In this document: positions 11,145 through 19,516 of the stretch, piece after piece
How positions within the stretch are numbered: the stretch's first letter is position 1
How the letters are laid out: the number at the start of each line of letters is the position of its first letter
Assembly (NCBI RefSeq): GCF_030503895.2
Contig: NZ_CP129970.2
Coordinates: 994,001 to 1,058,000 of the forward strand
From: Marivirga arenosa
GTDB taxonomy: Bacteria > Bacteroidota > Bacteroidia > Cytophagales > Cyclobacteriaceae
DNA: 64,000 bases
Direction of reading: 5' to 3'
Translations under genes and position numbers: made by a program
The notes under the pieces: model-generated
The model's database searches: none
Told to the model about the DNA's origin: nothing
The model's input: only the letters and a program-made list of their open reading frames with translations

Positions 11145-11152
11145 AATTTCTG

Positions 11153-11237
11153 CAGAGGCGGAGGGATTCGAACCCCCGGTACCTCGCGGTACATTGGTTT
11201 TCAAGACCAACGCAATCGACCACTCTGCCACGCCTCT
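11153..11237 (-). tRNA. tRNA-Ser (anticodon UGA)
   Basis: The minus strand folds as a class II tRNA: acceptor AGAGGCG/CGCCTCT, discriminator G (usual for tRNA-Ser), an anticodon arm with the loop reading CTTGAAA (anticodon TGA), a long variable arm GTACCGCGAGGTAC, and T arm with GGTTCGAATCC. CCA is not fully encoded, which is normal in this phylum. It decodes UCA and, with modification, other UCN codons. A strong promoter lies upstream and a terminator follows. Confidence 0.97.
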
Positions 11238-17777: not shown

Positions 17778-17962
17778 TGACTAACATCCTACTGATAATA
17801 TATTTCAATAATTTCATGAAATATTACATATGTAATATGAGATTTCTATCCTTGAATTAGAGGAATTAATACCCTATTTGTTGCACTTAACCGATAATTA
17901 ATAGAATTAATTTGAATTTAAGATTTATTAAACGAGATTTAACTTAAATAAAATAGGGAATC

Positions 17963-18226
17963 ATGCACACAGCCGTATCAAAAAAAGAAAATATAATTGA
18001 TAAATTCAGCAGCTTAATTGATTTAAGTGGTGGGAACAGTTCTGAATGGAAAATTGGAATAGCTTCCATTGAACGAGCATCACTTCTTAACGTTAAAGAC
18101 GAAATATCTTTCCAAAAAGTACAAATTGATGAGGCAAAAGAAATCTTATTTCATTTCATTGCTCAAGGAGTTCAGACTTGTAATATGAGCAAATCTAATT
18201 ATAACGGAATATATCTATACAGATAA
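17963..18226 (+). CDS. 87-residue protein of unknown function beside the tRNA-like array
   Basis: I do not recognise this protein. It starts at an ATG with normal upstream spacing and reads as a soluble alpha/beta chain without signal peptide or membrane segment (IIDKFSSLIDL ... EWKIGIASIERASL ... EAKEILFHFIAQG). The codon use looks like the neighbours, and the low-complexity bias of shadow ORFs is absent. Its stop lies only 3 bp before the 3' end of the first tRNA-like unit on the opposite strand, so a transcript of the array that failed to end would be antisense to it. Confidence 0.5.
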   Translation: MHTAVSKKENIIDKFSSLIDLSGGNSSEWKIGIASIERASLLNVKDEISFQKVQIDEAKEILFHFIAQGVQTCNMSKSNYNGIYLYR

Positions 18227-18229
18227 AAG

Positions 18230-18387
18230 CTGTAAGGGAAGGATTCGAACCTTCAAGAAGCAGTTAGGCAACAGATCCCACGATAAACTACTTTGGGATA
18301 CATAAATTATCGTGAAACAGCTGTGCTTTATTCCAAACCTTCACCCCCGAGACAGGAGGGCATGTTTGCCAATTCCATCACCCTACA
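18230..18387 (-). ncRNA. tRNA-like RNA with 89-nt variable region, copy 1 (promoter-distal)
   Basis: On the minus strand the 158-nt unit folds as a tRNA: acceptor TGTAGGG/CCTTACA (one G-T pair), TG at positions 8-9, a Leu-like D arm (GGAATTGGCAAACAT), anticodon stem CCCTC/GGGGG with loop CTGTCTC (anticodon GUC at 18351-18353), T arm GAAGG-TTCGAAT-CCTTC, and G at the discriminator. Between the anticodon and T arms lie 89 nt instead of 4-20. They include an 8-bp helix CACGATAA/TTATCGTG. G73, GUC, G2-C71 and C38 equal E. coli AspRS identity elements. Position 37 is U, not a purine, so normal decoding is doubtful. CCA is not encoded. Confidence 0.75.
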
Positions 18388-18407
18388 GTGTAATAGCTTA
18401 AGTTAAC

Positions 18408-18433
18408 GACAAGTACAAAAGATTGTACTTGTC
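18408..18433. other. perfect 10-bp hairpin between tRNA-like copies 1 and 2
   Basis: GACAAGTACA and TGTACTTGTC pair perfectly around a 6-nt loop. On the minus strand no T run follows, so it may be a processing or stability element rather than a terminator. It lies in the 143-nt spacer (18388-18530), where I see no gene. Confidence 0.6.
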
Positions 18434-18530
18434 AAATAACCACGCTTAATAAAAGTTAACCTTTCAACTCTGATCACTAGAGATCTCAACAATCAAATTG
18501 ATAAAATACAAAGCTCTTCATTGCATTTTG

Positions 18531-18694
18531 CTGTAAGGGGAGGATTCGAACCTCCAAAGAGCAGTTAGGCTACAGATTTCACGATAAACTACTTTGAGAT
18601 TCCCAAAAGGAAATTATCGTGAAACGACTGTGCTTTATCCCAAACCTCCACCCCCGAGACAGGAGGGCATGTTTGCCAATTCCATCACCTTACA
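18531..18694 (-). ncRNA. tRNA-like RNA with 95-nt variable region, copy 2
   Basis: The 164-nt unit has a fully paired acceptor (TGTAAGG/CCTTACA), the same D and anticodon arms as the other copies (anticodon GUC at 18658-18660), and T arm GGAGG-TTCGAAT-CCTCC. The T stem differs from copy 1 by a compensated pair, which supports the fold. The 95-nt insert has an 11-bp helix (TTTCACGATAA/TTATCGTGAAA) and possible outer pairing AGCA..CAG with CTG..TGCT. The discriminator is G; CCA is not encoded. Confidence 0.77.
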
Positions 18695-18708
18695 ATTTAT
18701 TTTAATAA

Positions 18709-18733
18709 AAAGTAAACCGTTTATACTTTTTGC
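18709..18733. other. imperfect dyad between tRNA-like copies 2 and 3
   Basis: AAAAAGTA and TACTTTTT pair around a short loop in the 38-nt spacer. On the minus strand the 3' arm ends in a T run, so weak termination or RNA processing between the units is possible. Confidence 0.35.
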
Positions 18734-18885
18734 TGTAAAGGGAGGATTCGAACCTCCAAGGAGCAGTTAGTCCCAAGTGATCACAATAAACTACATTAAT
18801 GTAAATTATAGCGCTCATTCGGGATTTATCCCAATTCTCCACCCCCGAGACAGGAGGGCATGTTTGCCAATTCCATCACTCTACA
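18733..18885 (-). ncRNA. tRNA-like RNA with 84-nt variable region, copy 3 (promoter-proximal)
   Basis: The 153-nt unit has acceptor TGTAGAG/CTTTACA (one G-T pair; the A-T pair at position 6 replaces G-C of the other copies), identical D and anticodon arms (GUC at 18849-18851), and T arm GGAGG-TTCGAAT-CCTCC. Its 84-nt insert is the most diverged. It keeps GGGATAAA, GTAGTTTAT and CTAACTGCT blocks, has a local GGGAT/ATCCC hairpin, and its main helix carries one mismatch and a G-T pair. It is the first unit after the promoter. Confidence 0.72.
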
Positions 18886-18925
18886 AAATTTATTCTGATC
18901 AGTACTTTTTGCTTTTCTGATATTT

Positions 18926-18933
18926 CAAAGGTA
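18926..18933 (-). promoter_or_regulatory. candidate -7 element of the tRNA-like array
   Basis: The minus strand reads TACCTTTG, an exact TAnnTTTG match, about 40 nt upstream of copy 3. At the -33 position (18953-18956) the minus strand reads ATTT instead of TTTG, and this lies inside the palindrome at 18953-18973. Confidence 0.55.
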
Positions 18934-18952
18934 ATAAAAAGATCAATTACTT

Positions 18953-18973
18953 AAATATTATTTAATAATATTT
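18953..18973. promoter_or_regulatory. perfect 21-bp AT-rich palindrome, candidate operator
   Basis: AAATATTATT, a central T, then AATAATATTT is a perfect inverted repeat. It overlaps the -33 region of the array promoter and lies 72 bp before the Lrp/AsnC start. Lrp-family proteins bind AT-rich partial palindromes, often next to their own gene. Binding here is inference. Confidence 0.45.
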
Positions 18974-19045
18974 GATTATAAATAGAGATACAATAATTTT
19001 AAACTATATTTATTAATTATTATGTAATTTAAAATCATATATCAT

Positions 19046-19516
19046 ATGGAAAATTATCAACTTGATAATACGGATTTAGCCATATTAAATATCCTAATGC
19101 AGGATGCACGAAAACCCTATACTGAAGTAGCCGAAGAAGTATTTGTTTCTCCAGGGACTGTCCATGTCAGAATGAGAAAGATGGAAAAACTAGGCTTAAT
19201 TAAAAATTCTCAGCTACAAGTTGATTTGTCAAAACTAGGTTTGGATGTAACGGCATTTTTAGGAGTGTATCTCCAAAAAAGCTCTTTATACGATGATGTG
19301 GTGGCAGCCTTAAAGGAAATACCTGAAATAGTCGATTGCCATTATACTACAGGGGCATATTCTATGTTTGTAAAAATAGTTTGTAGGGACACCAATCACC
19401 TTAAAAACATATTACATGATTCAATTCAGCCTATTTCCGGAATAGAAAGAACAGAGACTTTTATATCTTTGGAGGAAAGTATAAATAGGCAAGTTCAACT
19501 AAACCCTAAAAAGTAA
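19046..19516 (+). CDS. Lrp/AsnC family transcriptional regulator
   Basis: The 156-residue protein has an N-terminal winged HTH (about 6-52; LDNTDLAILNILMQDARKPYTEVAEEVFVS...VHVRMRKMEKLGLI) and a C-terminal RAM effector/oligomerisation domain (about 70-150; TAFLGVYL, YTTGAYSMFVKIVCRDT). The length is standard. These proteins sense amino acids and often control a divergent neighbour; here that is the tRNA-like array. The effector cannot be read from sequence. Confidence 0.94.
   Translation: MENYQLDNTDLAILNILMQDARKPYTEVAEEVFVSPGTVHVRMRKMEKLGLIKNSQLQVDLSKLGLDVTAFLGVYLQKSSLYDDVVAALKEIPEIVDCHYTTGAYSMFVKIVCRDTNHLKNILHDSIQPISGIERTETFISLEESINRQVQLNPKK

Follow-up and report, generated by a model that had tools for sequence, protein, structure and literature searches.

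Oversized tRNA-like RNAs of Bacteroidota and viral contigs: an apparently undescribed family

Three tRNA-like units in the Marivirga arenosa genome

The window, a stretch of 64,000 nucleotides, corresponds to positions 994001-1058000 of the single-contig Marivirga arenosa genome of 3,942,954 bases. It contains three tRNA-like units on the minus strand and, divergent from them, an Lrp/AsnC-family regulator gene (Table 1). As an earlier note on this DNA had proposed, the units are full cloverleaves with greatly extended variable regions, and their lengths up to G73 are 153, 164 and 158 nt for units 1, 2 and 3. All three have a 7-bp acceptor with UGU at its start and ACA at its end, a D stem made of A10-U25, U11-A24 and G12-C23, an anticodon stem CCCUC/GGGGG with the loop CUGUCUC, and the T loop UUCGAAU, after which come G73 and C74. 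The identical run over the D and anticodon arms that had been pointed out previously is present in all three, and it extends over 40 consecutive nt instead of 39. Compensating changes distinguish the units in the T stem (GGAGG/CCTCC versus GAAGG/CCTTC), as the note had also observed, and likewise in the stem of the variable arm (GGAG/CTCC versus GAAG/CTTC).

Table 1. Positions of the tRNA-like units and neighboring features in the window (variable-region lengths were counted by hand on the sequence)
Feature	Position	Strand	Remarks
Unit 3, tRNA-like RNA	18230..18387	-	89-nt variable region
Unit 2, tRNA-like RNA	18531..18694	-	95-nt variable region
Unit 1, tRNA-like RNA	18733..18885	-	from acceptor through G73, with C74 at 18732; variable region of 84 nt
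TACCTTTG	18926..18933	-	match to TAnnTTTG, the Bacteroidota -7 consensus; about 40 nt before unit 1
AT-rich inverted repeat	18953..18973	.	arms of 10 bp; lies within the spacer; possible Lrp operator
Lrp/AsnC-family regulator gene	19046..19516	+	divergent from the units; PF01037, PF13412 and PF13404 over cut-off

The hairpin type of unit 1 is common to one unit each in two other genomes (L007:1255-1407 in G006 and L011:1501-1654 in G015), and units 2 and 3 belong to another type; since the unit 1 type recurs in these genomes and units 2 and 3 differ from it, two paralogous lines have seemingly been kept. An 87-amino-acid open frame on the plus strand (17963-18226) ends 4 bp from unit 3, which lies on the opposite strand. 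Elsewhere in the same genome, a weak tRNA match of 36 bits (L067:610-681; G000:C1:884709-884780), uncalled by ARAGORN, resembles a tRNA-Val about 500 bp off and is perhaps a decayed copy.

ARAGORN left units 1-3 uncalled, its sole call in the window being a tRNA-Ser at 11152-11237, and the same tRNA-Ser was the only match to Rfam at gathering scores across the whole window. When 17800-19100 was compared with Rfam at E values up to 10, nine matches were obtained, every one below its gathering score. No match to Rfam 15 above gathering score was obtained on the units of the window, of ten further loci or of L389.

Conservation of the fold

The compensating changes had been taken in the earlier note as evidence for selection on pairing, and larger sets of units agree with that view. 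An alignment of 38 units has 96.3% paired cells, and both sides vary in 13 of its 28 pairs, a value that 0 of 500 shuffles reached; with the DNA matches in 44 of 59 genomes reported below, this argues against a chance resemblance. A second alignment of 40 units (27 viral and 13 host) gave 97.7% pairing cells, 26 of 37 pairs varying on both sides and a covariation score of 0.512, compared with 0.164 for shuffles (0 of 500 as high) and at most 0.101 for the slid alignment, although the relatedness of the sequences has possibly inflated the shuffle test. Covariation is found in the acceptor, D, anticodon and T stems and in every other helix that varies, and the 7-bp acceptor and 5-bp T stem (a 7/5 domain) hold across the aligned units.

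The variable region does have helices of its own, as previously suggested. Covariation among the 40 units supports three of them in the variable arm. The first is the variable stem itself; the second is short, and each of its pairs shows 17 to 22 double changes; the third is longer and ends in a cap formed by a conserved element of the GGUNGACCAC type. An A-rich GAUAAA/CUAA loop lies between variable-arm helices. An alternative fold of the D and anticodon arms, proposed by RNAalifold, was set aside; its deficit relative to the cloverleaf is only modest (0.459 versus 0.512 in covariation, 97.2% versus 97.7% in paired cells).

Distribution among Bacteroidota

A DNA search with the units produced matches in 44 of 59 genomes, the genome of origin and all eight others of the same genus among them; the weakest match (G041) covers the T arm only. 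For the phylum as a whole, a covariance model was built from the 38 units and 296 sampled genomes were scored. Family members at 87 bits or more were present in 31 of the 296, a count that rests on ten scored candidates per genome and may miss weak members. Matches outside the family reached at most 62 bits and were tRNA-Leu wherever identified, and one match, of 72.5 bits in G048, is ambiguous. The homologues extend beyond close relatives, the 31 RNA-positive genomes spanning seven families, of which three are in the order of M. arenosa, three in its class and one in another class. The sampled genomes of five large families (f24, f25, f34, f35 and f41) had no family RNA.

A pattern with 20 fixed bases matched at least 120 stretches in a species-genome collection, and all the listed ones are from Bacteroidota, most of them falling within Cytophagales, Chitinophagales and Saprospirales. 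Named cultured genera with members are Marivirga, Chitinophaga, Algoriphagus, Dyadobacter and Hymenobacter. Since this pattern fixes positions 35-39 (UCUCG), conservation of the anticodon loop was counted from other sets of units (55 host and 71 viral). Plasmids gave no match when one viral unit was used as the query. In Phaeodactylibacter xiamenensis, four near-identical units of 110 nt are repeated with a period of 151 bp (L204:312-874), which suggests recent growth of the array. The three window units thus belong to a family of oversized tRNA-like RNAs that is widespread and has apparently not been described, with members in Bacteroidota and, as detailed below, in viral contigs.

Promoter box and association with an Lrp/AsnC regulator

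TAnnTTTG is the -7 promoter consensus of Bacteroidota. It was found before 91 of 132 unique host units, compared with a shuffled mean of 9.8 (maximum 17) and 14 for the reverse motif, and this enrichment is good evidence that the units are transcribed. Before viral units there was no enrichment (6 of 70; shuffled 2.65, maximum 8). Across 17 spacers, the mean best arm of a candidate operator palindrome was 6.4, versus 5.7 when shuffled, a difference that does not establish an operator.

A divergent pair of unit and Lrp/AsnC gene was present in 17 of 21 contexts (20 hand-picked and that of the window), while the other neighbors change; a putative suf-like operon, named from its sequences, was present in 7 of the 21. 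The unit is divergently adjacent to lrp in 21 of the 31 RNA-positive genomes and not adjacent in ten. A subgroup of Lrp proteins scoring at least 160.7 bits was found in 31 of 31 RNA-positive genomes versus 3 of 265 others (G048, G060 and G179), the 160-bit cut-off having been picked after the scores were seen; at the preset cut-off of 1e-40, 57 of the 296 genomes were positive, comprising all 31 with the RNA and 26 of the 265 others. Among the host loci listed by the pattern scan, 73 of 118 had the divergent pair, 2 had the gene nearby and 43 were without Lrp, some of these stretches ending near the unit. No Lrp gene was found in the 118 listed viral stretches.

Several genomes depart from the general arrangement. 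G060 and G179 have an lrp gene above 196 bits, yet no match to the family RNA. Two genomes from the family of M. arenosa (G022 and G035) have neither a DNA match to the RNA nor a close Lrp, and G018 and G052 have a close Lrp without a unit beside it, the whole-genome RNA search there being by DNA only. In G055 a unit lies beside lrp, though the DNA search had missed this genome. The region upstream of lrp in G179 (L363) retains, divergent from the gene, a TACATTTG box along with a hairpin that resembles a terminator, with no unit between; a unit may have been lost there.

Lrp-type regulators often control a divergent target, and the Lrp/AsnC partnership points to a part for these RNAs in amino-acid physiology.

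Viral copies

The pattern with 20 fixed bases matched at least 120 stretches in IMG/VR, and a second pattern that left the anticodon free matched 113. In most viral copies the extra domain is present together with a palindrome, and many viral copies lie within tRNA arrays. A short viral form lacks the cap, has a 96-nt class II tRNA shape and is called tRNA-Asp by ARAGORN; still shorter forms exist. In a tree computed from the 83-nt core of 253 sequences (82 viral), the host or viral label changes 10 times, versus 69.6 when shuffled, so that the two pools are largely separate.

Among 61 distinct viral segments, 50 contain a perfect palindrome, 6 to 12 nt long, directly 3' of the GACCA element. 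Its sequence takes 25 different forms (for example GCGCGC, GCATGC, GCCGGCCGGC and TTGTGCACAA), and mononucleotide shuffles yield 16 such segments on average and at most 26. These counts refer to anchored segments, with 13 of 79 viral units that had no anchor left out, and the independent events are fewer than 50 since the phages are related. Self-complementarity that is kept while the sequence varies is the trace expected of an RNA homodimer contact; the viral palindromes, which we presume to be comparable to the dimerisation loop of HIV-1, suggest that these RNAs may form dimers. Host segments at the same place had a palindrome in 15 of 65 cases, which is the chance level (15.9 when shuffled), and the palindrome was therefore rejected as a general feature of the family. 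The centers of host short hairpins were palindromic over at least 6 nt in 23 of 100 cases (shuffled 20.0) and over at least 8 nt in 12 of 100 (shuffled 4.7, maximum 11), a marginal signal. The D loop is enlarged in seventeen viral units, and in five of them (L248, L264, L289, L295 and L312) the insert contains a perfect palindrome of 6-20 nt, which may be another site of self-pairing.

A terminase-like gene, one member of which matches PHROG 6681 (E value 1.6e-7), is present in 50 of the 118 listed viral loci (L240-L354) with the unit at a median of 449 bp, and these terminase-linked loci are probably one phage group. With the L240 unit as query, a full-length copy was found among the tRNA genes of LR756504.1, a named uncultured phage of 636 kb; L257, the window stretch, L309 and L264 as queries gave no match in named phages. 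In two loci a tmRNA gene lies within about 1 kb of the viral unit (L264:1341-1734 and L289:1076-1460).

Of 99 non-duplicate viral loci that have other tRNAs, 14 also contain an ordinary tRNA-Asp of 73-77 nt, and since these loci keep it, replacement of the phage tRNA-Asp was rejected as a general role. No ordinary tRNA-Asp was found in the viral stretches L248, L251, L260, L339 and L433, each of which has 11-15 tRNAs within the part of the phage covered. The frequent position of viral copies within tRNA arrays, together with the tRNA-Asp-type loop and the tandem copies, would also fit a role in host-phage conflict, with the RNA drawing off nucleases or competitors that attack tRNA-Asp, either as a decoy or as a spare target, but we consider this unlikely, as neither the Lrp association nor the extra domain would be explained.

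tRNA-Leu-like body and aspartate-type identity elements

The units were compared with 31 distinct tRNAs recovered from the same genome, a set from which tRNA-Ile(GAT) is absent. They resemble tRNA-Leu in a D loop of the AAUUGG(U/C)AGAC type and in the bases that flank the variable stem (U44 on its 5' side, G-U48 on its 3' side), and tRNA-Leu(gag) scores 57 bits under the covariance model of the family. They differ from it in having G73, where the four tRNA-Leu genes have A73, a GUC-type loop with U37, a variable region of 84-95 nt with extra helices, and a regulator of their own. With tRNA-Asp the units share G73, G34, U35, C36 and C38, and their anticodon loop deviates from that of tRNA-Asp at position 37 alone (U for A37), whereas U1-A72, A10, the class II body, the pyrimidine at 37 and the huge variable arm set them apart. 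In the recovered set, G73 occurs in the tRNAs for Asn, Asp, Ser and Trp only, and in combination with U35, C36 and C38 in that for Asp only. C74 follows the discriminator in the units, as it does in 31 of 31 of these tRNAs.

G73, G34, U35, C36 and C38 are the five strong aspartate determinants in the portion of PMC9976931 that treats them, and the earlier note, which had found these in the three window units, was right that they are there; beyond the three copies, U35, C36 and C38 were present in 55 of 55 host units. The GUC loop is less uniform than three copies could suggest, since G34 was found in 44 of 55 host units, with A in 10 and C in 1. Viral units had G34 in 70 of 71, U35 and C36 in 71 of 71, and C38 in 70 of 71. 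However, G1-C72, described in the same portion of that paper as strictly conserved and crucial in bacterial tRNA-Asp, is replaced by U1-A72 in 38 of 38 units of one alignment and 39 of 40 of the other, and G10, which the note had already reported as missing, gives way to A10-U25 in 32 of 38 and 30 of 40 units; U1-A72 and A10 argue against a complete aspartate set. Judged from its sequence, the family has a tRNA-Leu-like body, with the five strong aspartate determinants held in the loop and discriminator.

Charging by SerRS instead of AspRS, with the same use outside decoding, would draw on the bacterial serine elements G73, G2-C71, R4-Y69 and a large variable region, as far as these are set out in PMC9976931. 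Set against this are A72 in place of C72, a C11-G24 pair in only 7 of 40 units (U11-A24 in 25 and U-G in 8), a Leu-type base of the variable arm and the keeping of U35, C36 and C38, which serine would leave unexplained, and we regard it as highly improbable.

An RNA that is never charged could also have kept the tRNA shape for its maturation and stability and act as a structural or regulatory RNA that binds a protein (Lrp or a synthetase) or an mRNA. The large covarying domain of the variable arm, the constant regulator partner, and U1-A72 with the unusual loop would agree with this, and the Bacillus cereus pseudo-tRNA is a precedent as presented in part of PMC3399842. The joint keeping of C74, G73 and the aspartate-type loop would be left without explanation, and such a role seems to us rather unlikely.

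Prospects for decoding

A pyrimidine occupies position 37 in all 55 host units and in 70 of 71 viral units, compared with a purine in 31 of 31 tRNAs of the same genome, and U33, which is likewise found in all 31, was present in 51 of 55 host and 68 of 71 viral units. Since the pyrimidine at 37 argues against decoding and U33 is not always kept, codon reading by the family RNAs looks unlikely, in line with the earlier suspicion that U37 would hinder it. A specialized, translating tRNA-Asp with an enlarged variable arm would account for the GUC anticodon of most units and for the ARAGORN call on the 96-nt viral form. We nevertheless think it very unlikely, given positions 37 and 33, the AUC and CUC anticodons of some host units, and the ordinary tRNA-Asp encoded both in the M. 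arenosa genome and in the fourteen viral loci.

A possible non-decoding aspartyl-RNA

The conserved fold, the wide family, the host promoter box, the association with one Lrp/AsnC subgroup and the viral copies are supported computationally. With respect to function, we tentatively favor a chain of events in which an Lrp-controlled RNA is aspartylated and does not decode, a reading that we hold to be possible, if somewhat short of an even chance. The units would be copies of a tRNA-derived RNA that joins a Leu-type class II body to a structured variable-arm domain. The Lrp regulator would sense an amino acid and control the array, and the transcript would go through tRNA-type maturation, receive CCA and be aminoacylated with aspartate by AspRS. 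Outside decoding, the charged RNA might hold or pass on aspartate, or occupy AspRS; the phage version, self-pairing through its palindrome, might modulate or overrule the same step in infected cells.

Points for this aspartyl-RNA chain are the covariation, C74, the Asp-type loop with G73, the pyrimidine at 37 and the Lrp subgroup, and the fourteen viral loci that have an ordinary tRNA-Asp as well are also counted in its favor. Against it count U1-A72 and the usual lack of G10, a long variable arm of a kind that AspRS does not normally meet, and the 11 host units, out of 55, that have A34 or C34. The separation of RNA and lrp in 10 of 31 genomes, the lrp genes of G060 and G179 that have no RNA, the lack of a unit beside lrp in G018 and G052, the lack of lrp in viral stretches, the failure of the spacer palindromes to establish an operator, and the several viral stretches of 11-15 tRNAs without an ordinary tRNA-Asp count against it too. 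The fuller proposal, that of a new class of Lrp-regulated, non-decoding aspartyl-RNA which descends from tRNA-Leu, serves as an amino-acid signal or donor, and was copied by phages as a self-dimerising version with varying palindromes, is in our estimation doubtful. The reading first given to this locus was sound as to a structured family, and it had missed the tRNA-Leu-like body, the Lrp/AsnC link and the viral copies.

What emerges is a family of structured RNAs that descend from tRNA and occur in several bacterial families of the Bacteroidota as well as in many viral contigs; since members occur in named cultured genera, its charging, control and function are directly testable. If charged, the RNA would represent a non-ribosomal use of an aminoacyl-RNA under its own regulator. 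The viral copies, whose palindromes differ from one to the next, would provide a naturally occurring series of RNA homodimers.

Comparison with known systems

In tmRNA and in YrlA/Y RNA, tRNA mimicry is found within a larger RNA; the units of this family, unlike these, have a complete anticodon arm. No tmRNA match at gathering score was found on the units of the window and of ten further loci. A YrlA/Ro60 system was rejected, as there is no TROVE gene (PF05731) in the M. arenosa genome (G000), the sole genome searched. Phage-encoded tRNAs are similar in that viral copies are often in tRNA arrays, but most of these copies have the extra domain and palindrome. Nothing similar was seen in the sections consulted of a survey of viral tRNA genes (PMC6409571).

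As the earlier note had supposed, the family appears not to have been described: there was no Rfam match on the units, and no account of it was found in the text, as distinct from the figures, of the open-access literature. Absent from Rfam 15 and missed by ARAGORN in the window, it has as its nearest known kinds the pseudo-tRNA of B. cereus and the allo-tRNAs. The latter, like the irregular tRNA polycistrons, are similar in being tRNA-like genes of odd structure, some with a GUC anticodon, and some members of the irregular polycistrons are not charged by E. coli enzymes (PMC7609411, in part). The allo-tRNAs described in that part of the paper have 8/4 or 9/3 acceptor domains and come from Clostridia, Proteobacteria and Acidobacteria; our units, with a 7-bp acceptor and 5-bp T stem (7/5), Bacteroidota hosts and a structured variable domain, were therefore not identified as allo-tRNAs. 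The tRNA-Other of B. cereus is also a tRNA-like RNA, reported to be non-translational and tied to regulation, but as portrayed in part of PMC3399842 it is one iron-responsive gene flanking an island, whereas the RNAs described here form a family of many genera that is tied to Lrp.
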